A stretch of 64,000 nt of DNA from Mangrovibacterium diazotrophicum (GTDB lineage: Bacteria; Bacteroidota; Bacteroidia; Bacteroidales; Prolixibacteraceae). A program made the translations under genes and the position numbers. Numbering within the stretch: position 1 is the stretch's first letter; every line of letters starts with the position of its first letter. Shown here in pieces: positions 18,470 through 33,215 of this stretch. The notes under the pieces were generated by a model. The model searched no databases, was not told where the DNA came from, and saw only the letters and a program-made list of their open reading frames with translations. Where the stretch lies: assembly GCF_003610535.1 (NCBI RefSeq), contig NZ_RAPN01000001.1:186001-250000 (forward strand). Direction: 5' to 3'.

Positions 18470-18586
18470 AGTTGACAATTCGTGATTCGTACCGGTTTCC
18501 GATTCCGAATTTAGTAAAAATATATGGCAACAAAACAGGGGCTGGAAGAGGGAGTATTCTTAGTCCGGATCAGCAGTATCAGCCTG

Positions 18587-18618
18587 AAAAAAGTGGCGCG
18601 GATATAGTCCCGCGCCAC
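18587..18618 (-). terminator. Rho-independent terminator of the reductase gene (minus strand)
   Basis: Perfect 9-base GC-rich arms GTGGCGCGG (18593-18601) and CCGCGCCAC (18610-18618) lie just downstream of the minus-strand stop at 18634. The A-run at 18587-18592 is a U-run in the transcript. Confidence 0.88.
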
Positions 18619-18633
18619 GAGTATGATCTAGTT

Positions 18634-19365
18634 TTAATTACTGGTTAATCTCCAATCTGCATTCCAACCTAATGTGCCGGTTGCTTTTTCGGTAGAGAGT
18701 GATGCGTCGGCCTCCGCTACATTATAGATACCTGTCTGTCCTTTTGTAACTGCTATTTCAGCAGCTTTTGCTGCGGCTTCAACATGAACTGAAGCCGGGG
18801 CAATTGGGTTTTCGAAACCTGTTTTCGGACCATAAAGGAGTCCATATCGAAGCACAATCCCTTCAACACCCGATTCCAATACTTGGCGCTCCAGGTTTCG
18901 GATACCCTCGGCTGTTTCACCATACACCGGATGCGCAGCCGGTAATAAGGGGTCTTCTTCTACATGTGGTGTTTCACCCTCGTCGTAAATAAAGGAGATA
19001 CTTTGTGCGATAATTCGTTTGCAGCCTGCCTGTACGGCCGCATCAACTAAATTTTTGGTTCCCTCTGTTCTCAGGCGCGCATTGCGAACCAATGCGGCAG
19101 TCATTTCCAGCTCGTTAAGTGCGTAGGGGAGGTCGGTCAGCTGATTGATAACGACTTCCGGTTGAATTTCTGCAAGTACGCTTTGCAAACGTTCTGTATC
19201 ATATACATCTACGACAACTGGTTCTACGCCCATTTTTTGAAGAAGTGCAGCCTTCTCTTCAGAGCGGGTTGTTCCGTAAACTTTCCATCCATTTTCAATC
19301 AGTAGCCGGGAAAGCGGCTGGCCAATGGCTCCTGCTGCTCCTGCTAAAAAGATTTTTTTCGACAT
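18634..19365 (-). CDS. NAD(P)-binding epimerase/reductase, atypical SDR
   Basis: A 243-residue cytoplasmic Rossmann protein with the nucleotide-binding loop IFLAGAAGAIGQPL (GxxGxxG, residues 5-18), VVVDVYD at the end of strand 3 and a VYGETAEG segment where extended SDRs carry the YxxxK pair. The Lys of YxxxK is not evident, so it could be a binding protein or an atypical dehydrogenase. Just 55 bases upstream on the same strand lies a 58-residue winged-helix protein, and a strong terminator follows, so the two probably form a two-gene operon. Confidence 0.82.
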   Translation of the reverse strand: MSKKIFLAGAAGAIGQPLSRLLIENGWKVYGTTRSEEKAALLQKMGVEPVVVDVYDTERLQSVLAEIQPEVVINQLTDLPYALNELEMTAALVRNARLRTEGTKNLVDAAVQAGCKRIIAQSISFIYDEGETPHVEEDPLLPAAHPVYGETAEGIRNLERQVLESGVEGIVLRYGLLYGPKTGFENPIAPASVHVEAAAKAAEIAVTKGQTGIYNVAEADASLSTEKATGTLGWNADWRLTSN

Positions 19366-19420
19366 GTTTGTATGTTTTAAATTTTGAATAATGTGAGTTG
19401 TGGCTTCCTTGGAGGAAGAA

Positions 19421-19597
19421 TTATTTGGCCTGCCAGTAACAGCGTTTGGGAGAGATAATGGCTTCCTCCTTTTTTAATTGCTCCATGGCTTTGTCGACTT
19501 GCTTGCGCGGCAGACCAGTCAGTTCGACGATCTTTCCGGCGTTTAAGGGAGTAGCCTCTTTTTTGATGACTTCCAGCACCTGTTCTTTTGTGTCCAT
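19421..19597 (-). CDS. Small winged-helix (MarR-like) DNA-binding protein
   Basis: A 58-residue protein starting [15 protein letters not shown] and ending [10 protein letters not shown]. The pattern of helix, [30 protein letters not shown] (helix-turn-helix) and [12 protein letters not shown] (wing strands) is that of one-domain winged-helix regulators with the same length in Bacteroidota and archaea. A longer overlapping frame at 19377-19631 has poor composition and is rejected in its favour. The gene lies 55 bases before the NAD-binding reductase on the same strand, so it may regulate its own operon. Target and signal are unknown; CYW near the end could sense a ligand or redox state, which is speculation. 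Confidence 0.78.
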
Positions 19598-19802
19598 TCT
19601 GTTTGTTTTTGTTGTTAATTGATGGAAACAAAGGTATTTCGTGGCCGATTCAAAAAACTTAAACTGGTTTAAGAAAAGCAGGACATGTAGCGTTGGTCAC
19701 CGCGATTCATTGGATTTAAATCAGAGGATTGTTTTAAATAGTGGCAGGCCGAAACCGAGCAATGGAAGCGGTGATCAATGAATTTGGAAAATCAGACCGA
19801 AA

Positions 19803-20375
19803 TTAAGAATTCTTTTTTCGCAGTTCGCTGAGATATTCTGGTGTTAGGCCCAGGTATGAAGCCACCATGTATTGGGGCACACGTTGAATAAAATCCGGAA
19901 AGCTGGCGGCGAAATGCTGGTAGAATTCCTCCTTGGACATTTCGTAAACGTATTTGGATCTTAACTGCGACGCTGCGAGATTCCGCTGCATGACTATTCT
20001 AAAATACCGTTCCAATTGAGGCAGTGCTTCCAGCAACTCATCATACACCTGTCGATCGATTGAAACGACGCGGGAAGTCTCTATAGCCTGAATAAAATAA
20101 TCAGAAGGGGTGTTGTCCATAAAACTGAAAAAGTCGGTTAGCCACCAACCTTCAAGGGCGAACTGCGTAATTTGTTCCGCTGATTTTTCATTGATGAAAT
20201 ACATTCGTAAACAGCCTTTTTCGACGAAGTAAAGCGATTTGCTAACATTGCCGTTCAAAAGGATCAGCTCCTTTTTCCGGGCTGTTTGGTGTTTGATAAA
20301 GGTGTTCAGAAGCAGGACTTCGTTCTCACTTAGGTTCACCAATTTGCGGATATGCTCAACGAGTGTGATTTGCAT
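19803..20375 (-). CDS. Crp/Fnr-family transcriptional regulator
   Basis: A 190-residue protein with an N-terminal cyclic-nucleotide-binding beta-roll (KELILLNGNVSKSLYFVEKGCLRMYF, residues about 35-60; EGWWLTDFFSF), a long dimerisation helix and a C-terminal helix-turn-helix (RVPQYMVASYLGLTPEYLSELRKK). The phosphate-binding cassette of true cAMP receptors is not intact, as is usual for this large Bacteroidota subgroup, so the ligand is unknown. It is not clearly linked to its neighbours, although it could control the adjacent winged-helix/reductase pair 206 bases away. Confidence 0.88.
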   Translation of the reverse strand: MQITLVEHIRKLVNLSENEVLLLNTFIKHQTARKKELILLNGNVSKSLYFVEKGCLRMYFINEKSAEQITQFALEGWWLTDFFSFMDNTPSDYFIQAIETSRVVSIDRQVYDELLEALPQLERYFRIVMQRNLAASQLRSKYVYEMSKEEFYQHFAASFPDFIQRVPQYMVASYLGLTPEYLSELRKKNS

Positions 20376-20428
20376 CGTAATTTTCCTTCTTTTTGAACGA
20401 TTGAACAGGTTTTAGTCCGATTTACCTC

Positions 20429-20623
20429 TTATTCCGAATCGCCAGCTTTCTTATTCGAGCGGATAAGTAAAACCAAAAAGTAAAGGGTACCAATGCCAAT
20501 GCAAACACTGCCGGCAATTTCAAGGACTCTGCTTTTATTGTGCAAAATACCAAAGCCCAGAATGACCAGCAGAACCGCAACAACATCCCAAACCCGCAAC
20601 AGCGGTTTTTCTTTTTTCGTCAT
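20429..20623 (-). CDS. Small two-TM membrane protein
   Basis: A 64-residue protein with a basic N-terminus (MTKKEKPLLR) and two hydrophobic helices (about 11-28 and 34-55) joined by a short polar turn, ending in a charged tail. The topology suggests both ends face the cytoplasm. No family recognised. Coding nature is supported by amphipathic layout and typical leader; function unknown. Confidence 0.6.
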   Translation of the reverse strand: MTKKEKPLLRVWDVVAVLLVILGFGILHNKSRVLEIAGSVCIGIGTLYFLVLLIRSNKKAGDSE

Positions 20624-20716
20624 CCTGCAAATATAGAATTATTGCCGGCATTGCGGCGTCCTTTCTGAAGCAGGAAACAAATCCGTTGAATTCTCGAAGA
20701 TCACTGAAATCAGCTT

Positions 20717-22018
20717 TTATTTCTGCTTTTCAAATTCCAGGCAGGCCATGATAAACGGGCCGAGCACTTTCCCTTCGGTGATGTTATTGATCATCACATC
20801 CTGGCCGCACAGGTAATAGTCGGCGTCGCCCTTGCGGGTGCTGCTCAGGCCTGCTGATTCGCAACTTTGAATGATTTTGATTTTGCCGTCCGGTTCCTCT
20901 ACAACAAACTGGTCAATCAAGCCTTTGTAAGCCTTTAAGGCAACCGGTTTGTAGGTGTCGCTATCCAGAACTCCCAGGCGGATTCCCTTGAAATAAGCAT
21001 AGGTGAACATCGACGAAGCGGATGATTCCAGGTAGTTGTTCACACCGCACGAACTGGCCAGGCTATTGTCGTACTGCAGCAGTTGGTACCAGCAACCCGA
21101 CTGCTGATCCTGGCGGGCAGCCAGTCCGTCGGCCACGAGGTTGACATAGTTAATCAACCGAGGGCGGGCAGGATGATCTTTGGGCATGTATTCCAGCACA
21201 TCAACCAGGGCGGCAAAGAACCAGCCTTCTCCACGGCCCCAGAACTCCTGCGAACGTCCGGTCTCCGGATCAGCCCAGTGCGAAGAGGCTGCATTACCCG
21301 GCTCAGCCGCCCAGGCATGGTAGTTCAGTTTCTTCTTTGCGTCCCAGGTATGGGCAAAAATGGTGTCGAACTGCATGGCAATGTCATCCCACGATTGGGC
21401 GTTTTTCGTTTCACCTTCTTCCAATCCAAAGTTTCCCTGCCATTCGGCATACAAGGCCGGTCCCATGTACAAACCGTCCAACCACATTTGGTTGGTGTAT
21501 TGCTTTTTGTGCCAGAAACCTCCTGCTCCGGGAAGGGGAGACTCAATTCGTCGGTGATCATATTTTAGCTTGTTCCGGCAGATGGTGACGTTCTCTTTAT
21601 AGGTTGCCGCTTTGCAGTCTTCTCCCCGGGCTTTGGCTGCCCGATACAGTTCGAAATAGATTTTCCCGGCGTTCAGATCGTCAATGTTACTTTCTCCCAA
21701 ACGCATTTCAATGTGGTCGGCATAGTCTTCCACGGCGTTGTAAAACGGAGCGCTCCACGCTTCTTCCTGGTAATACTCCCAGGTCATTAATATTGCTTTG
21801 GCAACCAGGCCGGGAACATAGTCCCATTCAATATTTCGTTCTGTTGTGGCTGTTTTAAAGTGGGTAGTCGCCGACTTGTTTCTGAAATCACCCATTCGCG
21901 AGTTAATAATCCAGCGCGAATAAATGGTGTCAGGCTCAAAATCAGCAGCCTGGCTTTGGCTCAAAGTTAATAAACCGATCAGGCTTAAGGCGAGAAGTTT
22001 TAGTTTGTCTGTTTTCAT
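20717..22018 (-). CDS. GH105 unsaturated rhamnogalacturonyl/glucuronyl hydrolase
   Basis: A 433-residue exported protein (signal LLALSLIGLLTLSQSQA). The (alpha/alpha)6 barrel is recognisable from WDYVPGLVAKAILMTWEYY, FWHKKQYTNQMWLDGLYMGPAL (catalytic Asp in MWLDG) and EFWGRGEGWFFAALVDVLEYMP, all standard in family GH105 (YteR/YesR type). The reaction is hydration of the 4,5-unsaturated uronate that polysaccharide lyases leave at the non-reducing end of rhamnogalacturonan or ulvan oligosaccharides. This implies that a lyase for an acidic rhamnose-containing polymer exists elsewhere in the genome. The gene stands away from the SusC/D locus and faces an esterase gene on the same strand. Confidence 0.92.
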   Translation of the reverse strand: MKTDKLKLLALSLIGLLTLSQSQAADFEPDTIYSRWIINSRMGDFRNKSATTHFKTATTERNIEWDYVPGLVAKAILMTWEYYQEEAWSAPFYNAVEDYADHIEMRLGESNIDDLNAGKIYFELYRAAKARGEDCKAATYKENVTICRNKLKYDHRRIESPLPGAGGFWHKKQYTNQMWLDGLYMGPALYAEWQGNFGLEEGETKNAQSWDDIAMQFDTIFAHTWDAKKKLNYHAWAAEPGNAASSHWADPETGRSQEFWGRGEGWFFAALVDVLEYMPKDHPARPRLINYVNLVADGLAARQDQQSGCWYQLLQYDNSLASSCGVNNYLESSASSMFTYAYFKGIRLGVLDSDTYKPVALKAYKGLIDQFVVEEPDGKIKIIQSCESAGLSSTRKGDADYYLCGQDVMINNITEGKVLGPFIMACLEFEKQK

Positions 22019-22156
22019 GGGTTTAGCAGTATTTCGTTCGATTGCTGCAAATTAGCACAAATATCGCAGATAAACCTAGTTGATTGCAGGGAATCACCAG
22101 CAGGGACGAAAGTAAACGAATAAGAATGACTTTTCATAATTGAGGAGAAGTTGTGA

Positions 22157-22300
22157 TCCGATTGGCCTATTTTTCTCGAGACCGGAATCAAACGGAAAGC
22201 TTAGTGAAACCGGGAAGCTCCGACTTCAGGAGGAGATCACCCGGCTGAACTTGGCTTTCCGGAAGATGGAGGTTGAAGATAAAAATCAGCCTTGCGTTTT
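22157..22300 (+). repeat. Structured intergenic repeat, copy A
   Basis: Diverged match of the element at 36717-36852: shared blocks GGCCTATTTT, CTTAGTG.AAAC.GGGAAG, ATCACCCG.TGAACTT and AAAATCAGCCTTG. Nested stem CCGGG (22210-22214)/CCCGG (22240-22244) encloses CTCC/GGAG. It fills most of the 415-base gap 22019-22433; no gene is supported there. Confidence 0.65.
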
Positions 22301-22433
22301 CTGTTTCGTCTTTGGGGCAAGCCAAAGATGAAAACCTGTCCGGTAGGACAAAATATTCGTTTTGAACAAAAGTAGGAGTGAATACAGCAAGGTTGTGCCA
22401 GTCACGAATTTTAATTCCGAGAACAGCTTCGTT

Positions 22434-23303
22434 CTAGCGAAACTGATCTACCCAATGGACGAAAGCTTTCTTCCAGTTCGAGACTTCCAGACTTTCGTCG
22501 TAGGCCAGGCCAAAGCCGTGGTGACCATCGGGATAGACCCACAATTCGGAATGAGGCACTTTCTGCTCAACCGTTTCCAGGTAGGAGATCACTTTATCAA
22601 AGGGTAGTTTCTCATCGTTTTCAGCAATAGCCATAAAAACGGGAGGAATCTTTTCCGGATTGTCTGCACTTTTGATCAGCCGGGCGTTGTTACCATGATA
22701 AATCAGCGCCACAAAGGCCGGGTTCCATTCGTAGGCGCCTTCGTAATATTTGTAAATCATGCGTTCGGCCAGCCAGCCACCGGCCGAAAAGCCCATCATT
22801 CCAACTTTGTCGGCATCGAAGTTCAAACTGTCGGCCAGCGCTTTCAATGTTAGCATACTGGTGCAGGCATCCTGGTAAACAGCTCCTTTGTAATCGTCGA
22901 AGTCGATGATCCAGTCATTATCTTCATCCCGCCAGTTGGTTCGGTATTTCACCACCATGCAGGTAATGCCCTGCTGGCTAAGCCACAAAGCAATATCGGT
23001 TCCTTCTTTATCGAGCCACACATTGCGCAGGCCGCCACCGGGAAAAATAACCACAGCCAGGTGTCGGTTCAGTTCGGGTTTGGCCGGAAAGATTAGATAA
23101 CTGGGCGTTGTAACGAATCGGTAAACACGGTTTAAACCCGACAATGACTGCGCAGGAACACCCGAGTCGACGAACATCTCCGCCTCCGGGTATGTGACCG
23201 GATTATCGGTAATGCCGTTGGGATACAAGAGTTGTTCGGTGGGAAGTTGGGCCAGCAGTTGCATCGTGAACAGCAGGCCGAAGAGTGGTAGTAGTCTTTT
23301 CAT
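22434..23303 (-). CDS. Exported alpha/beta-hydrolase, acetyl-xylan-esterase-like
   Basis: A 289-residue secreted protein (signal LFGLLFTMQLLAQ). The alpha/beta-hydrolase signatures are an oxyanion-loop VVIFPGGGL, the nucleophile elbow MMGFSAGGW (Ser), AENDEKLPF (acid region) and DGHHGFGLAY (catalytic His). Proteins of this type in PULs remove acetyl or methyl groups so that exo-enzymes can proceed. It lies 415 bases upstream of GH105 on the same strand, supporting deacetylation of the same acidic polymer, but the gap makes co-transcription uncertain. A peptidase or dienelactone-hydrolase role is less likely. Confidence 0.8.
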   Translation of the reverse strand: MKRLLPLFGLLFTMQLLAQLPTEQLLYPNGITDNPVTYPEAEMFVDSGVPAQSLSGLNRVYRFVTTPSYLIFPAKPELNRHLAVVIFPGGGLRNVWLDKEGTDIALWLSQQGITCMVVKYRTNWRDEDNDWIIDFDDYKGAVYQDACTSMLTLKALADSLNFDADKVGMMGFSAGGWLAERMIYKYYEGAYEWNPAFVALIYHGNNARLIKSADNPEKIPPVFMAIAENDEKLPFDKVISYLETVEQKVPHSELWVYPDGHHGFGLAYDESLEVSNWKKAFVHWVDQFR

Positions 23304-23506
23304 GAAGCTGTAATTTAGTTAGTTGAGTCAGCTGCCTAAATTACAAATTGTTTCAATTCGGGCGATTCCAATTCAGCCTGATTGTCAGCGAATAAAGCTA
23401 ATCTGGAATTGTTCTGCATAAGCGGGTTTCGTCTGTTCTTGAAAAGAGGATGTCCCAAAATTCGAAGGAATATTTTTATAACAAATTGAAAACCGCACTG
23501 AAGTTT

Positions 23507-23566
23507 ACCCCTCCCGACCTCCCCTAAAGGGGAGGCTTAAAGTCCCCTTCAGGGGATTTAGGGGTC
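23507..23566 (+). repeat. GC-rich double-hairpin intergenic repeat, copy A
   Basis: Two adjacent perfect stems, CCTCCCCTAAAGGGGAGG and TCCCCTTCAGGGGA, in an otherwise unremarkable 369-base gap (23304-23672). An inverted copy lies at 46411-46468. Confidence 0.75.
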
Positions 23567-23672
23567 ACAGCCAGGAATGGACTTATAACTTGCTTTTTTA
23601 GAAAAAATTCCGATCGGCCTTTGGAACATCCTCCATATGGGTGATCAATCTTTCACACCCCCAATTCAATGT

Positions 23673-24431
23673 TTATTCAATTTTTCCAACTTTCACGTAA
23701 AGCTGAGTTTTCAGCACGCCGCTTACCGATTCTGGGATGCTGTCGGCCACATTGTTGAAAGCGTCGCTGTCGTGAATTATTTTGTAGATCTCCGGATTTT
23801 TCCAATTTCCGCGAATGAAATAGTTGTACGTATCACTCTTGTCTTCTTTTATTTGCAGCAGCTTGTAGCCGCAATCCCAGTAACCAAGTGAAGAAATCGC
23901 TTCGTTTAGTTTTCCGATTGTTCCGCTTAGTTCATCCAGCGCAGCATCGTCAGGTACTTTTAACAGGTGAACACTGGCGTAGTCGGTATCTTCGGGATTT
24001 GGTAAATGAGAGCTGTGGAAGTAGCTCAACAACCATTTGTTATTTACCTTTTTCAGAATGTAATCTTCATAGGTCAGAAAGTGAATGACCGCCGGCCCGT
24101 TGGTGAAGCTGGCATCAAACTCCACGATTGAACTTGCCATGTTGCCGGATACATCTGTGCTGACAAAGTTGAGCTTCATTACAACGGTTGAACCTTCAAT
24201 ACCCTTAAATAACCCCATGAAATCGTCCAGGCTTTCAAACTTCATCCCGTCTTCGAAAGCAGAAAAGTCGGGCGTGCAGAATGTCTTCATCGTTTCATAA
24301 TCGAATTTTTGCGCTGCGGAATAAAAGTCGTTGATGGCAGCTTCTACATTGGCCTTTTCTGCCTCCGGATTGGGCTGCTGACAGGCAACGAGCAAAGTTG
24401 CCATGACCACGAATAGGAAAAACTGTTTCAT
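23673..24431 (-). CDS. Lipoprotein with SnoaL/NTF2-like domain
   Basis: A 252-residue lipoprotein (VVMATLLVAC, then QQPNPEAEK). Residues about 25-145 fit a SnoaL-like cone: VEAAINDFYSAAQKFDYETMKTFCTPDFSAFEDG opens it and YILKKVNNKWLLSYFHSSHL closes it. The C-terminal 100 residues (DELSGTIGKLNEAISSLGYWDCGYKLLQIKED) are not recognised and resemble a substrate-binding extension. Function is unknown; such proteins can bind small hydrophobic ligands. Confidence 0.65.
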   Translation of the reverse strand: MKQFFLFVVMATLLVACQQPNPEAEKANVEAAINDFYSAAQKFDYETMKTFCTPDFSAFEDGMKFESLDDFMGLFKGIEGSTVVMKLNFVSTDVSGNMASSIVEFDASFTNGPAVIHFLTYEDYILKKVNNKWLLSYFHSSHLPNPEDTDYASVHLLKVPDDAALDELSGTIGKLNEAISSLGYWDCGYKLLQIKEDKSDTYNYFIRGNWKNPEIYKIIHDSDAFNNVADSIPESVSGVLKTQLYVKVGKIE

Positions 24432-24672
24432 GATGAATCAAAGTTTTGGTTAATACCGTGGTTACGATATCTGCGCTTGTAGGGTTCGCATGGAGCTGAT
24501 GCGACCACTGGCGCTCTTCGCAGCTTTGGTTTTTCCTCTAAGCTCAACTCTGGCAGTTAGGACTTATTTTCTTCGTGATTGGAGAGATCGAGGGTGGTTT
24601 TTGGTAGGCTATTTATGCAGATCCTGACGAATGAACGTAAAATTCGGGGGCGCAAAAATAGAGACCAAACAT

Positions 24673-24996
24673 CTATTTAAAGCGGATAAAGACATCGATG
24701 TTGTTTTTGTCAATCATGGTTAGTGTATCATTGCGAACGAGATACTTAGCCTTGTAGATCGAACCATCGTAGTCAATAAAAATCGAGTCACCTTTGGTTG
24801 TGTATTTCACGTAGGCAAAGTCATCGGGGTAGTAGATGGAATCTTTCAGGATTTCAAAATTTGCATTTTCATTGGGCGAGCTTCCCCAAATGCCCAGCAG
24901 TCTGTCTTGATCCTGTCCTTCTGATCTTGTTTGGTATGCAATAAGTAGAATCACAAGGAACAGTGAGAGCGGGATTAGTTTTCGAAATGAGTACAT
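24673..24996 (-). CDS. Hypothetical exported protein
   Basis: A 107-residue protein with a hydrophobic leader (LIPLSLFLVILLIAYQTRS) and a beta-rich domain (LLGIWGSSPNENANFEILKDSIYY, KGDSIFIDYDG, NDTLTMID) like small lipocalin-type or copper-resistance-type barrels of Bacteroidota. There is no Cys for lipidation. Family and role are unknown. It stands alone, with 240 featureless bases after its stop. Confidence 0.55.
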   Translation of the reverse strand: MYSFRKLIPLSLFLVILLIAYQTRSEGQDQDRLLGIWGSSPNENANFEILKDSIYYPDDFAYVKYTTKGDSIFIDYDGSIYKAKYLVRNDTLTMIDKNNIDVFIRFK

Positions 24997-25085
24997 GGTT
25001 TTAGTTTTTATTCGTTCGTGCAGATTTCAAATCTATTTCTAAAAATGGAAATGTTATAACATGACTGAAGAACTCCCTGCAAGTG

Positions 25086-25565
25086 CTACTTTCTGACGAT
25101 ATAATAAGCAGCGTCTAAGGTTGGTCTTCTCCAAATCTCCACTCCGTTGTACCATAGGCACGTTTTTCTTATTCCGTTTGGCAATTTGTCGAAAGTTGCA
25201 ACAATGGTGTCAGTATCATTTTCATCCCACTCAATAAAAGTAATGCTGGTCGTTTTATAGTGGTTCAGCACAACGCCGAGCTGATATTCGTTCTCGTGTT
25301 TTACAACTCTCGAACTGCGGGGATTGGCGTGATTTGAGCTGATAGCTTCTGTGATTTCTCCATTGGCGACATACCATATTTTTATTTGAGACGCGTCGAA
25401 ATGACCTGTTACTTCAGGGTCTAACAGGTCTTCGTTTTGCGCGTTAAATACTGAAAATTGAAAGCCGTAATCATAGAGGGAATTGTTAATTGTATTTTCT
25501 TCTTCTTTCTCACAGGCCGTAAGGCTAATGATAGCGAATAAAAAGAGGCTAATCATTTTTTTCAT
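25086..25565 (-). CDS. Hypothetical lipoprotein
   Basis: A 159-residue protein with a lipoprotein leader (LFLFAIISLTAC) followed by an acidic EKEEENTINN surface-export-like stretch. The rest is beta-rich with Trp/Tyr pairs (QIKIWYVANGEITEAI, SITFIEWDEND). No family recognised. Confidence 0.55.
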   Translation of the reverse strand: MKKMISLFLFAIISLTACEKEEENTINNSLYDYGFQFSVFNAQNEDLLDPEVTGHFDASQIKIWYVANGEITEAISSNHANPRSSRVVKHENEYQLGVVLNHYKTTSITFIEWDENDTDTIVATFDKLPNGIRKTCLWYNGVEIWRRPTLDAAYYIVRK

Positions 25566-25611
25566 AGGGTTTGGTTGAATTTAGTGATCAGTGAATTAGT
25601 TGCAATACGGA

Positions 25612-26163
25612 CTATTCTGCTTGCCTGACAGTTTTATCCGAATTAATCATTTCCGAGCTGATTAAATAGCTGTTTATTCGTTTGCATTCATTCATGCATA
25701 GAAATATGATCTCTCTTGTTAAAGTTTGTTTGTCGCCGACGCCAATTCTCCAGCGATCTACGATTTCATTTTGTAGCCACTTAATTTCGTAAACCGCTTT
25801 GATCTGTAAGTTGCGCATGGTGCCCCTGGGAAACAACCCGTCAATTAAGATGCATAAACTGGATATACTCCCCAGAATCGCGGCTAAAATATTAAACTCC
25901 AACAAAGCTAAAATTCCGGTGGTTGCAGAAAAAACTATTGCCGGAATCTTTAAAATCCAGAACCAAAGCAGGTTTCGTTTGGCTTGCTTTGAATTGGAAT
26001 TCGCCCAGTTTTCCAATTCCTGGATTTTGTTTTGAATCTCTATTGGTAATTCTTCCAGCTCCTTTTTTTGATTGTCAGTGCCGTATCTGCCATCACTTCC
26101 TCCTATGTCGTAAAAAGCATAGTCAATAGCATCATAGTCGAAGTCGTCTGTTTTTTGCTGCAT
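25612..26163 (-). CDS. Two-TM protein, SLATT/DUF4231-like
   Basis: A 183-residue protein. After an acidic N-terminus and a helix (QNKIQELENWANSNSKQAKRN) come two close hydrophobic helices (about 65-85, LKIPAIVFSATTGILALLEF, and 90-108, LAAILGSISSLCILIDGLF), then FPRGTMRNLQIKAVYEIKWLQNEI and a helical tail. Polar helix, 2TM hairpin, then a helical region with conserved Arg/Glu is the plan of SLATT-type membrane effectors, some of which act in nucleotide-signalled antiviral systems. No cyclase or SLOG gene is adjacent. SLATT assignment is by pattern only. Confidence 0.5.
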   Translation of the reverse strand: MQQKTDDFDYDAIDYAFYDIGGSDGRYGTDNQKKELEELPIEIQNKIQELENWANSNSKQAKRNLLWFWILKIPAIVFSATTGILALLEFNILAAILGSISSLCILIDGLFPRGTMRNLQIKAVYEIKWLQNEIVDRWRIGVGDKQTLTREIIFLCMNECKRINSYLISSEMINSDKTVRQAE

Positions 26164-26254
26164 ATATTGATGTTTGGTTTGTTAATTCAATTCGTTCAAA
26201 ATTTGATTGGGTTTCTTAGTGAAGCTGATATCTGTTTTAATTCGAGTCAAAAAA

Positions 26255-26307
26255 CGTCGGGATTGCAAATTATTGCTGGATCGGATTTGTAATCCTAACG
26301 AGCTCGG
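26255..26307. repeat. GGATTTGTAATCC-type palindromic repeat, copy A
   Basis: Contains GGATTGTTAATCC-like stem GGATT-TGT-AATCC (26283-26295) preceded by GCTGGATC and followed by TAACGAGC. A related element lies at 28881-28945, just outside the RAYT gene. Confidence 0.6.
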
Positions 26308-26312
26308 GAATG

Positions 26313-27038
26313 CTAATAATACAAGCTATTTAAAAATAGTTCGATATTGGCTCTTGTTCTTTTTTTCGGGTTGATAATTGTTTCAGATTGCCTGTTTTCG
26401 ATGTTTGCAAGAATCCATAACTCACCGTTTAGAAATTTCAATCCAAACCGGCTTTCATCGTACCAGCCAAATTCTTTTATTTTCTTGTCACGGGAAATAA
26501 TTTGTTCGTTAATGGTCAATAAATCAATGCTCAAAACTTCTTCCGGAGTTGTGGTTTCAACTTTGGCGGTTAAAGTCGCGGCACTTCCAAACAAGGATAA
26601 CTCAATGCATCCTCGGGCTTGATGACTGCGATGACTCATGAAATCAGTTTGATATGAAAACTGAAGATTCCCGCTGATCGATTTTTGATAGGCGTCCTGT
26701 ATGATGTCTTTGTCCCAATCGTTTTCGCTCGCTAGTTTCATAAAACTATCGAAAACGATTTCCAAAAGAACTGCCCGCTTGCTATTTTCATCCAGCCGTT
26801 CAAAGTCTTCGCTGTTCAGATAGACCCGGTTTTCTGATATACTACCAAAGCGCAGGATACCTGTTGCTGATTCAGAATCTAAAAATACAATGTTAAGTCT
26901 CCGCCTTGAGCCTTTTAAACGATTGTCAAGGTTTTTCAGGAACAACCAGAAAATTTCCTTATAAAATGGAAGGGTATAGTTTTCCCACAGGTGCTCGGGA
27001 CTGTAATAGATCTCCAGGTAAGGATTTACAAAGTTCAT
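26313..27038 (-). CDS. Uncharacterised cytoplasmic protein
   Basis: A 241-residue soluble protein with no signal or TM segment. It begins MNFVNPYLEIYYSPEHLWEN, carries a basic RLKGSRRRLNIVFLDSES segment near residue 43, a helical central part (FERLDENSKRAVLLEIVFDSFMKLASENDW) and ends with paired Tyr. I recognise no domain. It starts only 12 bases after the stop of the 27051 gene, so the two are co-transcribed and may work together. Confidence 0.6.
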   Translation of the reverse strand: MNFVNPYLEIYYSPEHLWENYTLPFYKEIFWLFLKNLDNRLKGSRRRLNIVFLDSESATGILRFGSISENRVYLNSEDFERLDENSKRAVLLEIVFDSFMKLASENDWDKDIIQDAYQKSISGNLQFSYQTDFMSHRSHQARGCIELSLFGSAATLTAKVETTTPEEVLSIDLLTINEQIISRDKKIKEFGWYDESRFGLKFLNGELWILANIENRQSETIINPKKRTRANIELFLNSLYY

Positions 27039-27050
27039 TTTGTGGAAGGT

Positions 27051-27413
27051 CTAGTTTGTTATCAGTTTATTGATTTCGGCTAAGAACTCCCGAATTTCTC
27101 CAATATCGCCATCTTTCACTTTCCGGGACAATACGCGATGGTCGGTCAGCTCAATCTCCAATTCGTAGATATCCCGGTAGTCTTCCATTTCAGTACTAGG
27201 GACGACAAAACCATTGACCTCCCGTTGAGCGAAAAGTTTGTTGAACCAAAAGCCTACTTTGGTCTCTACCGGTGCGTAAGCTTTGTCAAACGAAATGCTT
27301 TTGATGGTGCTGAACTCCAACACATGTTCTTCCGAGTCGTCGTCGAAGAAAATAATGTGCTCATCTCTGATTTCAAGCCCCAGGTATTTCAAGATATCGT
27401 AATCGTCCAGCAT
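27051..27413 (-). CDS. Uncharacterised small acidic protein
   Basis: A 120-residue soluble protein, acidic at the N-terminus (MLDDYDILKYLGLEIRDE), with beta strands (HIIFFDDDSEEHVLEFSTIKSISF) then a helix (DIGEIREFLAEINKLI). The strand-rich front with a C-terminal helix is PH-like in layout, which is only a guess. It is directly upstream of the 26313 gene (12-base gap). Confidence 0.6.
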   Translation of the reverse strand: MLDDYDILKYLGLEIRDEHIIFFDDDSEEHVLEFSTIKSISFDKAYAPVETKVGFWFNKLFAQREVNGFVVPSTEMEDYRDIYELEIELTDHRVLSRKVKDGDIGEIREFLAEINKLITN

Positions 27414-27511
27414 CGCTTCTTGTGTTCGAATATGTATAGAAAATTCTATTTTCCAATAACGCTTTTAATCGGTGCAGATTGTAAATGCACACGAGTATTT
27501 TATATAATCTT

Positions 27512-28078
27512 TCAATAGTATTTTTCAATCCCTCCAAATCCTTTAATCGGTTTATTTTCCCGGGTTTTGGCGATAAAGTTGTTTAGCCGCTTTTCAAATT
27601 CTTCCGGTCTTTTCCGGGCACTGTCAATGTAGGCAATCCGAATTCGTTTATAGGGTTCCGAAAAGTTTTGATAGTTTTCCCAAACGGCTTTCTTCGATTT
27701 TAACTGCGCGATGATGTCTTCGGGAAAAACGAATTCTTGTTGAACTCGTTTTGAAACATCATCCCGAATGGAGTCGTGAATCAGCTTGTTTTCAAACAGC
27801 CATTTTAAGCGCTCCAGGTTCGGTTGCGAGAACGATGAGTTCTTGCGTCGTTTGCAAAAACGTTGAATAGCGGTCTCTTCGTCGAGCGACTTTATCGTCG
27901 TGTCAATCCAGCCAAAGCACAAGGCTTCTTCAACGGCATCGTTGTACAAGATCCGTTTTCTGCCCGTCTTCTTTAAAGGGTATTCCAACCAGATATCATC
28001 AGCGGTCTCAAAATTGGCTTCGAGCCATTTTCTCCAGTCTGCCCGGTCGGTAAAATAGATCGTTGTTATTTCATGCAT
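27512..28078 (-). CDS. YdeI/OmpD-associated family protein
   Basis: A 188-residue cytoplasmic protein. It has the family start (YFTDRADWRKWLEANFETADDIWLEYP), the signature LYNDAVEEALCFGWIDTTI, the FCKRRKNSSFSQPNLERL block and a C-terminal FSEPYKRIRIAYIDSARKRPEEFEKRL segment. YdeI-family proteins occur widely; some were linked to stress or peptide resistance, but the molecular activity is unknown. Length and motif order are normal for the family. Confidence 0.88.
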   Translation of the reverse strand: MHEITTIYFTDRADWRKWLEANFETADDIWLEYPLKKTGRKRILYNDAVEEALCFGWIDTTIKSLDEETAIQRFCKRRKNSSFSQPNLERLKWLFENKLIHDSIRDDVSKRVQQEFVFPEDIIAQLKSKKAVWENYQNFSEPYKRIRIAYIDSARKRPEEFEKRLNNFIAKTRENKPIKGFGGIEKYY

Positions 28079-28091
28079 GGCTTTATCCTCC

Positions 28092-28186
28092 GCTACCGCG
28101 CGATTGCATCGCGTTGTTTTTCAATAGGCTATTATTAGGTCTTTTACGATTCCCTGTCCTCCCGCATAATCAACGGCGCTGCTATA
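28092..28186 (-). pseudogene. REP palindrome plus 3' remnant of a RAYT transposase gene
   Basis: This 95-base stretch is about 95% identical to 28946-29040, which covers the REP and the last codons of the intact RAYT gene. It retains the reading frame YSSAVDYAGGQGIVKDLIIAY and stop (28121-28123, minus strand) and breaks off abruptly at 28186. The three differences inside the coding part are all synonymous third-position changes. The REP stem CGCGATTGCATCGCG is at 28099-28113. Confidence 0.8.
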
Positions 28187-28194
28187 TTTGCTTT

Positions 28195-28845
28195 TTATTG
28201 CCAGTTTTTTATTCTCATTTTTAATATGATTTGAAAATATCGATTAGTGTCTTTCGATTCATCGGGATTTTGTATTTCAGAATTTGTCCAAATGAAGTCT
28301 TTTGATACTTCAGTCAAACCATGACTATATCTTAAGCTAGTCGTAACAAATTCATTAATTTTGAGGCTAATTCCAATCATACCAGATAATTCGAATCGAT
28401 TAAGATATTTCACAATATCCTGTGTGTTGGAATCATACTTGTTTTTGGCACTTATCAGATAGTCGATTTCCGGTCCAATGGATATAAAGAACCTATCTGA
28501 TAAATAAAAGTCGGATAAAATAGGTATTTGAAGATAGTATAATCTCAATTTGTTTTTTTGGTCATTTGAATTGTAAGATTGGTTCCAACCTTTTCGAATT
28601 ATACCAGGCTCTACTGATAATCCCCAAAAACCGTTATCCTTAAAACTTAGATAACCATTTATATTGTAGGTGCCAATCGATGAAATCTCGTATGTAAGAT
28701 TGTTCTCTGCAGAATTTGAGAGGTGTAAACTTGCACGGTCAAAACCTGCTGCAATTCCTAAATCAAAATTCTGAGCATTTAAATTCATGCACGAGAAGAA
28801 TAGTATTCCTATGAAGGTTAGTTTTAATTTCAGTTTTTTATTCAT
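28195..28845 (-). CDS. PorT-like outer-membrane beta-barrel protein
   Basis: A 216-residue exported protein (signal LTFIGILFFSCMNLNAQ). Alternating strands (FDLGIAAGFDRASLHL, WGLSVEPGIIRKGWNQSY, LRLYYLQIPILSDFYL, RFFISIGPEIDYLIS, GMIGISLKINEFVTTSLRYSHG) fit an eight-stranded barrel of the Bacteroidota PorT/OMP_b-brl type. Function is unknown; some family members aid the type IX secretion system, which cannot be claimed here. The gene is A/T-rich and is enclosed by the outer REP pair, so it may have arrived with that element. Confidence 0.8.
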   Translation of the reverse strand: MNKKLKLKLTFIGILFFSCMNLNAQNFDLGIAAGFDRASLHLSNSAENNLTYEISSIGTYNINGYLSFKDNGFWGLSVEPGIIRKGWNQSYNSNDQKNKLRLYYLQIPILSDFYLSDRFFISIGPEIDYLISAKNKYDSNTQDIVKYLNRFELSGMIGISLKINEFVTTSLRYSHGLTEVSKDFIWTNSEIQNPDESKDTNRYFQIILKMRIKNWQ

Positions 28846-28880
28846 GCTATTCTAGTTTAGTTTTTAATCTTAGGTTACAT

Positions 28881-28945
28881 TTTGCTGGATCGGGTTTGTA
28901 ATCCGATCCGTTCTGATTCAGGATTGCAAATCCTGACGAGCAGGG
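28881..28945. repeat. GGATCGG...CCGATCC / AGGATT...AATCCT palindromic repeat, copy B
   Basis: Two perfect stems lie side by side: GGATCGG (28887-28893) with CCGATCC (28903-28909), and AGGATT (28920-28925) with AATCCT (28929-28934). It abuts the REP at the 3' end of the RAYT gene and resembles 26255-26307. Confidence 0.65.
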
Positions 28946-28971
28946 GCTACCGCGCGATTGTATCGCGTGGT
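28946..28971. repeat. REP palindrome at the 3' side of the RAYT gene
   Basis: GCTACCGCGCGATTGTATCGCGTGG contains the hairpin CGCGAT-TGT-ATCGCG. It is the inverted partner of the copy at 29583-29608. Confidence 0.8.
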
Positions 28972-28974
28972 TTT

Positions 28975-29529
28975 TCAATAGGCTATTATTAGGTCTTTTA
29001 CTATTCCTTGTCCTCCTGCATAATCAACGGCGCTGCTATATAGATAGTCTTCTGCCCGAGATACCAATCCCGCTTCAATCGGATTTTGGTGGATGTAATC
29101 TATTTTCTCATCCAAAACTTTATTGCTCCATAGTTCAATTGGATGATTATCATGTCTCCAAAACTGATATTCATTTACATTTGATGCATTATTTCCCGCC
29201 TTCCTAAATTGAGCGAGTAAAAACTCTTTCCGGCTCTCCTGTGGATTTTCGATTATGGCCCTTACGATTGCTTTGCTGGTAAACCGTTTGAAATCGCCAA
29301 TTAATAATTCAGGCTTTTGCGTCCCACCACTTTTGAAAATTAAATGCACATGACTCGACATGATGCACCAGGCATAAACCTGCATCCGCTTTTCTTTTTG
29401 ACAATATTGCAGGCTATCGACGATGATGTTTTTGTACTCGTTGCGAATAAAAACATCCAACCACTCTACAACAGCGAAGCTTATAAAGTAAACTCCTTCA
29501 GGATTATGAAATTTGTAGTTGCGGCTCAT
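28975..29529 (-). CDS. REP-associated tyrosine transposase (RAYT, Y1 family)
   Basis: A 184-residue single-domain HUH nuclease. The metal-binding HUH pair is in CIMSSHVHLIF (His60, His62) and the catalytic Tyr145 lies in the hallmark EKIDYIHQNPIEAGLV. The N-terminus (MSRNYKFHNPEGVYFISFAVVEWLDVF) and FWRHDNHPIELWS are also standard for the group. RAYTs nick and move or spread REP palindromes; exactly such palindromes flank this gene as an inverted pair (28946 and 29583), with two more copies further out. All catalytic residues are present, so the protein is probably active. Confidence 0.93.
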   Translation of the reverse strand: MSRNYKFHNPEGVYFISFAVVEWLDVFIRNEYKNIIVDSLQYCQKEKRMQVYAWCIMSSHVHLIFKSGGTQKPELLIGDFKRFTSKAIVRAIIENPQESRKEFLLAQFRKAGNNASNVNEYQFWRHDNHPIELWSNKVLDEKIDYIHQNPIEAGLVSRAEDYLYSSAVDYAGGQGIVKDLIIAY

Positions 29530-29582
29530 ATCTGCATCTTATATCTAAGGTCTGTTAAATTTAACTACCTGCTACCTATTTA

Positions 29583-29608
29583 ACCACGCGATGCAATCGC
29601 GCGGTAGC
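29583..29608. repeat. REP palindrome at the 5' side of the RAYT gene
   Basis: ACCACGCGATGCAATCGCGCGGTAGC, the reverse complement (few changes) of the copy at 28946-28971, with hairpin CGCGAT-GCA-ATCGCG. Confidence 0.82.
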
Positions 29609-29622
29609 GGGGGAGTGCGAGA

Positions 29623-30210
29623 CTATTTCTCATAGCGGTAATGCCCGATTATCCGGTAACGAAACAAGCAATCTTCCAAAACCTGCCCCTGGCCAATGTT
29701 GTGGATGATGAGGTGCCTCGTTTTGTCGGCCGATTGTTTACGGCTCACAATGCCGATATGCGTGATGCTTCCTCCAAGGTTCCAGCAAACCAGGTCGCCG
29801 GGTTCATAATCGCTTGGGTTGTTGGTTATTTCTTTTTGTTCTCCAAATTTCGCGAAAAAGCACATCAGGTTTGGAACCCGCCGGTGATCAATATTTTTAT
29901 CCGGGCGGCTTAATCCCCAGAGCTTCGGATAGCTGTCAAAATGTTGAAGCATATCCTCGTGAACCTCTTTTTGTAAGTCGATGCCAAGTTTGCGGTACGC
30001 CCGGATCACTACATCGGTACAAACGCCTTTATCATTTGGAACGTCGCCATTGGGGTAAGCGATGGTGAAATACGCCGGATCATAATGAACCGCTTGTTGG
30101 GTGAGCGTTAAAGCCGAATCTGCCAATTGGCTATAAAAGCTGTCTTGCCCATTGGCTGAGTTCAACGCCAGGCAGATGAGAAAGAGTTTTAGGAATAGGC
30201 GAGGCGTCAT
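29623..30210 (-). CDS. DUF1287 exported protein, NlpC/P60-like
   Basis: A 195-residue secreted protein (signal LKLFLICLALNSANG). The DUF1287 signature AYPNGDVPNDKGVCTDVVIRAYRKLGIDLQ holds the candidate catalytic Cys, and SITHIGIVSRK plus LIIHNIGQGQVLED supply candidate His residues. The family belongs to the papain-like cell-wall hydrolase group, so a role in periplasmic peptidoglycan or amide hydrolysis is likely but unproven. It lies between the inner and outer REP copies on the 5' side of the RAYT gene. Confidence 0.85.
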   Translation of the reverse strand: MTPRLFLKLFLICLALNSANGQDSFYSQLADSALTLTQQAVHYDPAYFTIAYPNGDVPNDKGVCTDVVIRAYRKLGIDLQKEVHEDMLQHFDSYPKLWGLSRPDKNIDHRRVPNLMCFFAKFGEQKEITNNPSDYEPGDLVCWNLGGSITHIGIVSRKQSADKTRHLIIHNIGQGQVLEDCLFRYRIIGHYRYEK

Positions 30211-30266
30211 AGCTACGGGTTGATTTGGTTATTTCTTAATTCACAACTGCAGGGCGTTGCTTTATC

Positions 30267-30291
30267 TACCACGCGATACAATCGCGCGGGA
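30267..30291. repeat. Outer REP palindrome
   Basis: TACCACGCGATACAATCGCGCGGGA, same orientation as the copy at 29583 and inverted to the copy at 28092. It lies in the short gap between the DUF1287 and ion-channel genes. Confidence 0.78.
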
Positions 30292-30302
30292 GTATGGCAT
30301 TT

Positions 30303-31277
30303 TTATAATATTAAAATCAGACCAATAACTATTGCTATAGGATATAAAACACGCCCAGAGTATTCTAGAATATTTGCGAGTTTTATTTTCTCATTTTTTT
30401 CTAATCTGTATGTATATACTGTTTGAATTAGTGCCAAACAGATCATTGTATAAAATAAGTAAAAAATGAGATCAGACTTGGTGATATAACCGATATTGGG
30501 AATATCACCTACGGTAGAAAGTTGAACTGCAATGCATGCAAGTAAAGCAGTGACCGTACATCCAACAGCTACATCTAGTTTATTCGCAGGGATATAAAAT
30601 ACTAAATAAGCAATTAATGAAAGTAGCACACAGGGTATGATAATCTTGAGCAAATAGGATCGGGAATTTCGTTTTACCGTTACTTCATAATTTAGTCTGG
30701 AATAATTTGCAGAAAGTGAATAATCAGGATCGCCAAATGTAGTTTTATATATTTTAGTTGATTTATTAAACTTAGATGAAGCCAGTTTATATTCGTCTAA
30801 GGTTATTCTGTCATCAAACCCCTGAAAAGCAGAATTTGCATAGGATAAAGTATCTGGATTTAATACTAGAAGATCTTCCGGCAAGTTCGCACTTTCAATT
30901 ATGATGGGGATAACTTGTCTGTCTTTGGGGTAGTCTCTAAAATTCGGAGTATAGTTGAATTCACCTTTGCAAGTGCCTGAAACTATATAATAGAAAATTG
31001 TCTTTCTTGTATCTCCAATAACAATTTCAGCATCCGGTCTGGCATTAATAAATTCCAACGTTGAATATTCACTAATGAGGCTATCCGGAACGCTTAAAGG
31101 TATTTTACACCACCAGTAAAAATTCACATAAAAGATAGCATCAGAACTATTGATAGAAAAATCGTTGATATGTAATCCCACATCTAAGTTTATAGCTTGG
31201 TTTTCATCATTACTGAAGCAATTTAGTGTCATAAATACTGAAATAATTAAAAACGATGCTTTTAAACCTTTTTTCAT
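30303..31277 (-). CDS. Bacterial pentameric ligand-gated ion channel homologue (Cys-loop superfamily, GLIC/ELIC type)
   Basis: A 324-residue protein with a signal peptide (1-22), an extracellular beta-sandwich of about 185 residues and four TM helices near 208-229, 235-256, 266-290 and 306-324. Superfamily marks include LDVGLHINDFSIN at strand 1, FYVNFYWWCKIP, the Pro-loop NFRDYPKDRQVIPIII (113-127, without a flanking Cys pair, as in prokaryotes), a pore-like M2 (DVAVGCTVTALLACIAVQL) and the M2-M3 link DIPNIGYITKSD. It would assemble as a pentamer in the inner membrane and gate ions on ligand or proton binding. Ligand and ion selectivity are not readable. It lies 119 bases downstream of the HEPN gene on the same strand. 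Confidence 0.85.
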   Translation of the reverse strand: MKKGLKASFLIISVFMTLNCFSNDENQAINLDVGLHINDFSINSSDAIFYVNFYWWCKIPLSVPDSLISEYSTLEFINARPDAEIVIGDTRKTIFYYIVSGTCKGEFNYTPNFRDYPKDRQVIPIIIESANLPEDLLVLNPDTLSYANSAFQGFDDRITLDEYKLASSKFNKSTKIYKTTFGDPDYSLSANYSRLNYEVTVKRNSRSYLLKIIIPCVLLSLIAYLVFYIPANKLDVAVGCTVTALLACIAVQLSTVGDIPNIGYITKSDLIFYLFYTMICLALIQTVYTYRLEKNEKIKLANILEYSGRVLYPIAIVIGLILIL

Positions 31278-31396
31278 GACAAGGGAGCGTTAAATTGTTA
31301 GGTATCTGGTTAGTTGTTTGGTAAGGTGATGGATTCGATAATGAATTTTTTCCTGTAGCCAGCAAGTGTTCGTGTATTCTAAAAAGCGAGAGATAT

Positions 31397-32629
31397 TCAA
31401 TTCTTCATCTCTTGTTTTAATTTAGCCAAACCTTCTTGACCAGCGAGACTGCCTTTTAAACGTCTTATGGCAGTCACAGGATAGAGATTGTTTGGACCTT
31501 TAAATTCCCAAAGTTCTACAAGTCCTTTTCTTTCAAGAAGATTTATCAGGTCGTAACTCGATCGATAATCATATCCTTGTGAGCCAAGAAAGTTAGTGAC
31601 GAAGTGTTTGAGACTGACAAAGTTGTCTCTTGTTTTTGCTGCCCAACTTTCCGATTCATCAAGTTTTTCTAGTAATTTCTCTTCAGAGATCACGTTGTAG
31701 CTAGCGAAATTTTGTGTAATGTTTTCCTTAATTAGATCTTTTTCATCGAGGCTAAATGATATGTTATCTATTTTTTCATTTGCTTCTTTGATGATGTCGA
31801 ATAGATTTTTGCAAATTTCTTCAGATCTTTCAAGGTCTTTAGCTGTAAATAAATTATTGTGGGCAACCTTGTGCCTTATCTTTTCAAGCTCTTCCCATTT
31901 TTGCTGGAATTCTTTATCCTTAAATGTATCTTTAAAGAACTTTGTATAATTACTTTCAAGCTCCCTTTTTAGAGTTTTAATCGCTTCAGGAGTTTCCTCT
32001 AAAGCAAGTACTTTATTAGCGATGTCATCTCTACTCAAAAAGCCAGAAGATTGAGAATGGACAATTTTTCCAAGCTCATTAAAGTCAATTAAATAGGCCT
32101 TATTATCAATATACTCAGAAAAGTCAGTTTCATTATTTTTTCTTTGAATGACCTTTTTCTTCATTTCCGCATCTGCAGTAACATTCCACCAACTAACCCC
32201 TAACTTAGTTATGAAAAATTTGATGAGGTACTTTCTTAACTGATTTTCAACCTGATTTATTTTTGGATAAATCTCACATGAAATTTTAGCAGATACATCG
32301 TCCGATAAAATGTATAGGTAACTATATCCCTGATTTTTTAAGTGAGCTAAAATTCTCAATCTAAAAACTTCTAGTGGTTCATAGTCTCCCTTACATTTTA
32401 TTAAAAAAGTGTTTTTTAAGCTAGTATCACTTTCTTCTTCTCGACTCAGCTGCTTAATTCCTAGTGTCAAGTTTTGTTTTTCATCAGAAATTGAGGCCTC
32501 ACGTTGTTTGGGTTCTATCCATAAATCCCCATTAGCCATCAATGAGTAAGCAAGATTCTTTTCGTTCTTTATTACAGATTTCTCAGAAGAGTCTAGACAA
32601 AGAACTTCAAATACATAGTTTGTTTTCAT
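31397..32629 (-). CDS. HEPN-domain protein with RxxxxH ribonuclease motif
   Basis: A 410-residue soluble protein. The central region (about 120-285) fits a Swt1/Apea-like HEPN domain: QVENQLRKYLIKFFITKLGVSWWN, a KAYLIDFNELGKIV segment and EELEKIRHKVAHNNLF, with Arg252 and His257 forming the RxxxxH catalytic motif. The N-terminal 115 residues and C-terminal 125 residues (SLKHFVTNFLGSQGYDYRSSYDLINLLERKGLVELWEF) are not recognised; the last part resembles a winged helix. HEPN proteins with this motif usually cleave RNA in toxin-antitoxin or abortive-infection systems. No nucleotidyltransferase antitoxin is adjacent. Its A/T-rich composition fits an acquired gene. Confidence 0.72.
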   Translation of the reverse strand: MKTNYVFEVLCLDSSEKSVIKNEKNLAYSLMANGDLWIEPKQREASISDEKQNLTLGIKQLSREEESDTSLKNTFLIKCKGDYEPLEVFRLRILAHLKNQGYSYLYILSDDVSAKISCEIYPKINQVENQLRKYLIKFFITKLGVSWWNVTADAEMKKKVIQRKNNETDFSEYIDNKAYLIDFNELGKIVHSQSSGFLSRDDIANKVLALEETPEAIKTLKRELESNYTKFFKDTFKDKEFQQKWEELEKIRHKVAHNNLFTAKDLERSEEICKNLFDIIKEANEKIDNISFSLDEKDLIKENITQNFASYNVISEEKLLEKLDESESWAAKTRDNFVSLKHFVTNFLGSQGYDYRSSYDLINLLERKGLVELWEFKGPNNLYPVTAIRRLKGSLAGQEGLAKLKQEMKN

Positions 32630-32943
32630 ATAAGGCGATAATTATAATTGACGATTGTATAAGGCATGCTGTTATTATTTATTTTTCGAATCATATATAA
32701 GTCACCACCTTATAATTATTAGACGATTTATAATATTGGCTTTATTTTCTATTTAAGGAATTACTAATAATCGAATTTTGAAAATACCAATAATTTCTAA
32801 TATTGATAACAGGTGTTGATAAAATGTGGATAATGAGAGCTTAAAAGGAATGAGTCTAGTTAACTAGTATGTGATGAAATGAACGAAATAGCGATAACAA
32901 AAAAGAAAAAGTGCCTGCGTAGTAGCTGTTCGCGGGGAACGGC
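32630..32943. other. A/T-rich gap without genes
   Basis: About 310 bases upstream of the HEPN gene (and downstream of the fibronectin remnant). The stretch is strongly A/T-rich and shows no open frame or clear stem. It may hold the HEPN promoter. Confidence 0.5.
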
Positions 32944-33162
32944 TTAGAGAACGTAGCTGCTAACCGGATCGCTCCATTTGCGGGAAGGGTTGGAGCCGGC
33001 ATAAGCGGCGCGGAACAGGTATTCTTTCCCGGGAGTGAGGTCGTCAATCTGGATCATATGCCTGGTGCTGGTCGTTTCGCGCCAAATGCGTTGCAATCGG
33101 TTGCGCAAACGCTTCGCCCTTCCCGTTAATTTTTTATTTTTGTAGACTTGCAGCCTGCCCGT
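32944..33162 (-). pseudogene. C-terminal remnant of a fibronectin type III protein
   Basis: The minus strand is open from 33162 to a stop at 32944 and encodes IDDLTPGKEYLFRAAY followed by AGSNPSRKWSDPVSSYVL, the last strands of a fibronectin III domain at a protein C-terminus. The only ATG (33057) lies inside the domain, and upstream codons (before about residue 27) look non-coding. It is best read as the leftover 3' end of a gene whose body was lost, perhaps when the A/T-rich island to its left arrived. Confidence 0.5.
33093..33142 (+). promoter_or_regulatory. Candidate operator and -7 element before the GH106 gene
   Basis: GCAATCGGTTGC (33093-33104) is an imperfect palindrome with the central AAnCGnTT pattern of LacI-family operators. 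TATTTTTG (33135-33142) matches the -7 element, with only a weak TTCG at the -33 position. The start codon is 73 bases further on. Confidence 0.35.
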
Positions 33163-33215
33163 TTAACTACTCAAGACAAGATCGTTTCCGGCAGGGGGAA
33201 CAAAAACTACTAATT

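Follow-up and report, generated by a model that had tools for sequence, protein, structure and literature searches.

A two-domain pentameric ligand-gated ion channel in Mangrovibacterium diazotrophicum: superfamily membership, relatives and probable horizontal origin

Results

The channel gene and its neighbours

The stretch of DNA analysed here (the window) comprises 64,000 nucleotides of Mangrovibacterium diazotrophicum contig NZ_RAPN01000001.1 (186,001 to 250,000); coordinates are positions within it unless preceded by the handle of another locus (Table 1). It holds an intact open reading frame – ATG start, 324 amino acids, no internal stops – for a subunit of a pentameric ligand-gated ion channel (pLGIC), the sole pLGIC copy in its genome. 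The gene lies between a HEPN gene upstream and a DUF1287 gene downstream. The HEPN protein carries an RX4H motif, RHKVAH, at residue 252.

Table 1. Coordinates of features in the window and of related gene sets at other loci
Feature	Position	Strand	Basis or remark
pLGIC subunit gene	30303..31277	-	ORF, library matches, PDB matches, model, fold match
N-terminal signal-like helix	residues 2-16	-	
Beta-sandwich ligand-binding domain, predicted periplasmic	about residues 29-203	-	
Channel protein helices	M1 206-228, M2 234-256, M3 267-294, M4 298-323	-	model
Pro-loop YPKDRQ	30915..30932	-	residues 116-121, computed from ORF
M2 pore helix	30510..30578	-	residues 234-256; D235 (-2') right at helix start
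HEPN (Swt1-like) protein, 410 aa, upstream neighbour	31397..32629	-	PF18731, 3e-8; GC 0.332
DUF1287 protein, downstream neighbour	29623..30210	-	GC 0.480, like rest of chromosome
REP-associated tyrosine transposase (RAYT)	28975..29529	-	NF047646, 9.9e-27, above cut-off
REP hairpin just beyond channel gene 3' end	30269..30289	+	hairpin/pattern search
Synteny break (left end of stretch collinear with congener G002)	33162	.	nucleotide match start
pLGIC + HGSNAT-like pair	L047:8001-10078		
pLGIC + HGSNAT-like pair	L086:2892-4969		
pLGIC + HGSNAT-like pair	L046:1-2102		
pLGIC + HGSNAT-like pair	L019:1369-3470		
pLGIC + HGSNAT-like pair	L020:388-2478		
pLGIC + HGSNAT-like pair	L028:1477-3458		
CASTOR/POLLUX-type channel gene	L047:6052-7995		PF06241
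CASTOR/POLLUX-type channel gene	L086:970-2886		PF06241

The initial annotation placed the channel next to a HEPN gene and a REP/RAYT element. Both are present, but the channel gene is not bracketed by REPs: hairpins at 28096, 28950, 29584 and 30269 surround the RAYT, and the channel gene adjoins the HEPN gene and one REP, with the RAYT two genes downstream. The REP pattern gave eight matches (four sites on both strands) against none in 100 shuffles; its exact form has three copies in the genome, all in the window, where the fourth site differs by one mismatch. REP-bounded transposition of the channel gene was considered and rejected, because the gene falls outside the 28.1-30.3 kb interval that the REPs span.

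Superfamily membership and fold

Library profiles recognised the protein below their curated cut-offs: PF02932 (Neur_chan_memb) at 7.9e-6 (26.7 bits, cut-off 28.1), NCBIfam LGIC_1 at 1.2e-18 (67.6 bits, cut-off 500) and LIC at 1.2e-14 (53.9 bits, cut-off 280.2), while PF02931 (Neur_chan_LBD) gave no match at E up to 1. Such cut-offs are annotation thresholds, not defining residues. As a single query the protein matched 310 distinct PDB sequences at E up to 1, the best being 6fl9 ('Cys-loop ligand-gated ion channel'; 4.5e-11), a match confined to the channel domain (residues 190-321). We take 6fl9 to be sTeLIC. The channel domain is also homologous (1.1e-8) to that of DeCLIC and related multidomain pLGICs (6v4a, 9ftg), although the protein lacks the extra N-terminal domain of that type. 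A profile built from the channel protein and 34 relatives (35 rows; A3) matched GLIC over positions 27-316 of 320, thus both domains, at about 1e-34; its top PDB row was a GLIC-glycine receptor chimera (1.1e-35), and 239 distinct PDB sequences scored 1e-10 or better. With 4.5e-11 for the single sequence and about 1e-34 for the profile, both to solved pLGICs, the superfamily match is not due to chance.

All seven positions that Jaiteh 2016 (PMC4795631) gives as conserved superfamily-wide hold an allowed residue: Y116, P117 and D119 provide the [F/Y]PxD of the beta6-beta7 loop (Table 1 of that paper), Y163 the beta9 core aromatic (27 W, 7 Y and 1 S among the 35 A3 rows), R203 the pre-M1 arginine, P215 the M1 kink proline and P260 the M2-M3 proline. 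P117, D119 and R203 are present in 35/35 A3 rows and P260 in 34; P215 aligns with GLIC's proline pairwise, and proline stands there in just 10 of the 35. The Pro-loop without cysteine and the IPNIGYIT link after M2, both noted in the initial annotation, are as described. Of the seven cysteines (20, 57, 103, 216, 240, 248, 280) none falls in the Pro-loop or between 103 and 216, so that the animal-type Cys-loop is lacking, as it is from the Pro-loops of prokaryotic members.

An AlphaFold2 monomer model computed on the A3 alignment (pLDDT 90.4, pTM 0.78) predicts a beta-sandwich extracellular domain followed by four transmembrane helices, the layout proposed at the outset. At E up to 0.001 Foldseek returned 1018 matches, GLIC ranking first (E 7.1e-20, TM 0.75, rmsd 5.4 A, 16% identity); the 50 matches listed were all GLIC, GLIC chimeras, or receptors of the GABA-A, RDL or glycine type. 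The protein is a two-domain prokaryotic pLGIC – a new, largely ordinary member of the superfamily of nicotinic and GABA receptors – as the initial annotation had held.

Distribution

Besides its own genome the channel matched 3/148 near genomes and 8/392 genomes of the order (E up to 0.001); a more sensitive profile from a three-row alignment (A2) matched 31/394 genomes of the class at the same threshold, many of these matches being multidomain proteins of larger size or members of other pLGIC groups. The patchy bacterial distribution proposed earlier thus holds. Single-sequence scans of viral contigs and genome contigs found no relative; the A2 search of genome contigs found 30. Carriage by plasmid or phage was discarded: just 3 of 72,556 plasmid records matched, all distantly (23-26% identity), and no phage record did. 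Prokaryotic pLGICs, their sporadic distribution, members in Cytophaga and fusions to PBP-I or Cache domains have been known since 2004, and a role in chemotaxis was then proposed from gene context (Tasneem 2004, PMC549065). In the open-licence literature we found nothing on the clade to which the window channel belongs.

Clade, pore and putative ligand site

A quick 76-row tree groups the channel protein with six Bacteroidota sequences (SH-aLRT 98), to which it is 28-34% identical; L017, L046 and L047 are near copies, so the six stand for four lineages. The tree left out identical rows and L048, L049 and L050 (repeats of G837, G255 and G070), and five long rows entered it poorly trimmed. The branch leading to the channel protein is long (1.47), and the tree program cautions that placements of this kind are uncertain.

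Aligned to GLIC by profile, M2 reads D at -2', V at -1', A at 0', G at 2', T at 6', L at 9', C at 11', A at 13' and L at 16'. The acidic residue at -2' (D/E) is found in 7/7 clade rows and 25 of the 28 other A3 rows, a set that includes four rows from other groups. At three further pore positions clade and other rows read as follows: 0' is A or S in the clade (A237 in the channel protein) and R in 28/28 others, 6' is T or S as against G in 26/28, and 9' is L or F as against F in 25/28. The main Bacteroidota two-domain pLGICs (e.g. L021-L041) share with the channel protein its length, W56, the Pro-loop and a Y-x-T-x-F/Y-G loop C, but have Arg at 0', mostly Gly at 6' and Phe at 9'. Placement of D235 at -2' is probable, not certain, because the pairwise alignment to PDB gaps the stretch from -2' to 0' differently: a two-residue gap there pairs GLIC's Glu with K233 rather than D235. 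A basic residue occupies 0' in 79% of the superfamily (Jaiteh 2016, PMC4795631), and a Glu just before M2 has been tied to cation channels (Tasneem 2004, PMC549065). An acidic residue before M2 together with a non-basic 0' suggests a GLIC-like cation pore.

The likeness to GLIC, the proton-gated channel of Gloeobacter violaceus, extends to the two domains, the fold, the acidic -2', Ser/Thr at 6', Ile/Leu at 9', Ala at 13' and the Cys-free Pro-loop. There are differences. GLIC's His at 11' is Cys in the channel protein, so GLIC-style proton gating is not implied; some 15 residues fewer separate beta2 from beta3 (judged from alignment and lengths); and loop C is longer, with Y-x-T-x-F-G. Residue 54 is aromatic in 35/35 A3 rows; it aligns with the beta2 aromatic of GLIC and presumably corresponds to the nicotinic receptors' loop D Trp. 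In loop C, Y177 and G182 are invariant in the same 35 rows, each of which has F or Y at 181. These conserved aromatics suggest a putative ligand site lined by an aromatic pocket; they name no ligand.

Acyltransferase-linked relatives

In 6 of the 34 non-window A3 rows an HGSNAT-like acyltransferase gene is adjacent to the channel gene on the same strand, a count made with the downstream genes of L008 and L023 outside the visible sequence. The two genes overlap by 4 bp (L046, L047, L017/L086) or stand 56 bp (L019) or 3 bp (L020) apart, and in L028 the acyltransferase gene is upstream with a 76 bp overlap. PF07786 was confirmed in five of the six linked acyltransferases, that of L046 being identified by alignment; in G513 and G616 the linked enzyme is the genome's only PF07786 match. 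The linked channels are spread over three lineages of the channel tree. In a tree of the acyltransferases – without L046 and two of the 13 unlinked loci (G070 C52 and C91) – five linked proteins stand on one side of a branch (98/98) from 11 unlinked paralogues. A profile of the linked subfamily found 7/395 genomes at E up to 1e-25, four linked ones having contributed to the profile; in the remaining three (E 2e-55 to 3e-73) no pLGIC was seen within 1.5 kb, which counts against a strict partnership of channel and acyltransferase.

Directly upstream of the pLGIC in L047 and L086 lies a CASTOR/POLLUX-type channel gene, and the two three-gene sets are 96.2% identical over 4154 bp. The channel of L018 (L087) begins 5 bp after a BBP2 porin gene. 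The window channel has no acyltransferase, CASTOR/POLLUX or BBP2 porin gene beside it, and a search for a CASTOR/POLLUX partner elsewhere in its genome gave 0 matches. We found no paper on an association of pLGICs with acyltransferases or CASTOR/POLLUX in the open-licence literature.

Origin of the gene

The initial annotation suggested horizontal arrival in an accessory island. The channel gene has a GC of 0.321 and a GC3 of 0.255, and the HEPN gene 0.332 and 0.292, as against 0.466 +/- 0.039 and 0.527 +/- 0.071 for 34 other ORFs of the window; low GC is nonetheless not unique to the pair, the ORFs at 28195 (0.313) and 55217 (0.314) being lower still. None of three congeners (G001-G003; G003 is 85% complete) has a match to the channel, and a DNA search of 13300-33200 against them found nothing between 29609 and 32780 (40/179 first-look candidates scored in G001, 40/48 in G002). 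To the right of the synteny break, G002 is collinear at 9/10 of the ORFs tested between 33216 and 49999, and left of 33 kb 0/19 window ORFs match the 30-kb piece of G002. The break is no island boundary, because ordinary genes further left are also unmatched in the piece and lie elsewhere in G002. Low GC, absence from 3/3 congeners and the synteny break support the view that the channel gene, with the stretch it lies in, was probably acquired horizontally, short of proof; the congener comparison gave no clean island with an empty site, no donor was found and the neighbouring DUF1287 gene is ordinary in GC.

Two further features of the window were recorded. An intergenic dispersed repeat at 22115-22394 has most of its 66 matches in G001 (the longer ones at 76-87% identity) and a few in G002 and G003. 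At 23673-28078 extra genes amounting to about 3 kb (25086-27413), among them a weakly SLATT-like one, stand between a SnoaL-like and an OmdA gene; in G002 these two adjoin, 161 bp apart.

Discussion

Homology spans the ligand-binding and four-helix channel domains, the coupling residues are conserved, and the monomer is predicted to have the pLGIC fold. Beyond this, the protein is most likely a cation-selective homopentamer gated by a periplasmic solute – pentamer, ligand and selectivity being what we infer – and to the joint reading of a two-domain pLGIC of this kind, encoded by a gene that was probably acquired horizontally, we assign a probability of about 0.8. The subunit would be secreted to the inner membrane with its beta-sandwich in the periplasm, and would assemble with copies of itself, as expected where a genome has a single pLGIC gene. 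A small periplasmic solute would bind between subunits and open the channel, the signal passing, we suppose, through the contact of the Pro-loop's Asp119 with Arg203 and through the M2-M3 loop. With Asp at -2', Gly at 2', Thr at 6', Leu at 9', Ala at 13' and Leu at 16', the pore appears GLIC-like and is predicted to select cations. The gene itself probably came by horizontal transfer, together with the low-GC HEPN gene or close to it.

A true pLGIC by descent might yet be anion-selective or unselective: A237 stands at 0' and Gly at 2', and a missing basic 0' and a single acidic ring do not settle the matter. Both selectivities are expected among prokaryotic members (Tasneem 2004, PMC549065), and the expected cation selectivity of DeCLIC is tied to two acidic rings (PMC9897478), where here there is one. 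In the profile alignment, however, GLIC's Glu stands opposite D235, a position acidic throughout the clade, and 0' has neither Arg nor Lys, unlike in anion channels; on balance we consider a pore of either other kind improbable.

The long terminal branch could reflect relaxed constraint on the channel gene, and together with atypical GC and GC3 and absence from the congeners it might mark a decaying or non-functional acquisition. The 119 bp upstream of the gene also lack a Bacteroidota-type promoter motif. Yet the frame is full-length and all seven superfamily positions are retained, which makes decay very unlikely. Least credible of all, and to our minds barely worth entertaining, is the reading that the channel and the HEPN gene together form an anti-phage defence locus in which the channel depolarises the membrane. 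The HEPN protein is a PADLOC candidate-defence match (PDC-M34B, 6.3e-12), its gene is 119 bp away and shares the low GC, and the SLATT-like gene, weakly matched (0.00042, below cut-off), is 4 kb off. But a HEPN homologue was found in 0/4 other clade-channel genomes searched, so that the HEPN gene is no conserved functional partner, and in 0/3 congeners; PADLOC does not match the channel, no match to it was found in viral contigs or phage records, and its sensing domain is predicted to face the periplasm.

Returning to the solute-gated cation channel, the relatives offer a more speculative extension. The window gene may be a solo member of a Bacteroidota system of a pLGIC and an HGSNAT-like acyltransferase – joined in one lineage by a CASTOR/POLLUX-type RCK channel – in which the channel would sense an acylated envelope sugar that the enzyme produces or alters in the periplasm. 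We regard this as unlikely on present evidence; if true, the module would couple envelope chemistry to cation flux. To our knowledge work on prokaryotic pLGICs has covered few of them and has said little on natural ligands and roles. The recurrent acyltransferase neighbour is a clue to a natural ligand that experiments can follow, and in this clade a compact channel combines a GLIC-like pore with the lack of the 11' His and of a basic 0', which makes it useful for working out what selectivity and gating each demand.

Two other arrangements came to light among the relatives. L006:4280-6498 carries a tandem pair of dissimilar pLGIC genes whose products, with 24% and 32% identity to the channel protein, could form a heteropentamer. 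Proteins of 1171-1255 aa (L051:6495-10262, L052:328-3906, L059:258-3809, L061:4234-7749) combine an N-terminal Peripla_BP_6 domain, a pLGIC and, at the C-terminus, SBP_bac_1, which, following M4, would lie in the periplasm; in the passages of PMC549065 the forms described are PBP-I fusions and PBP-II neighbours that stand alone, and the triple form does not figure.
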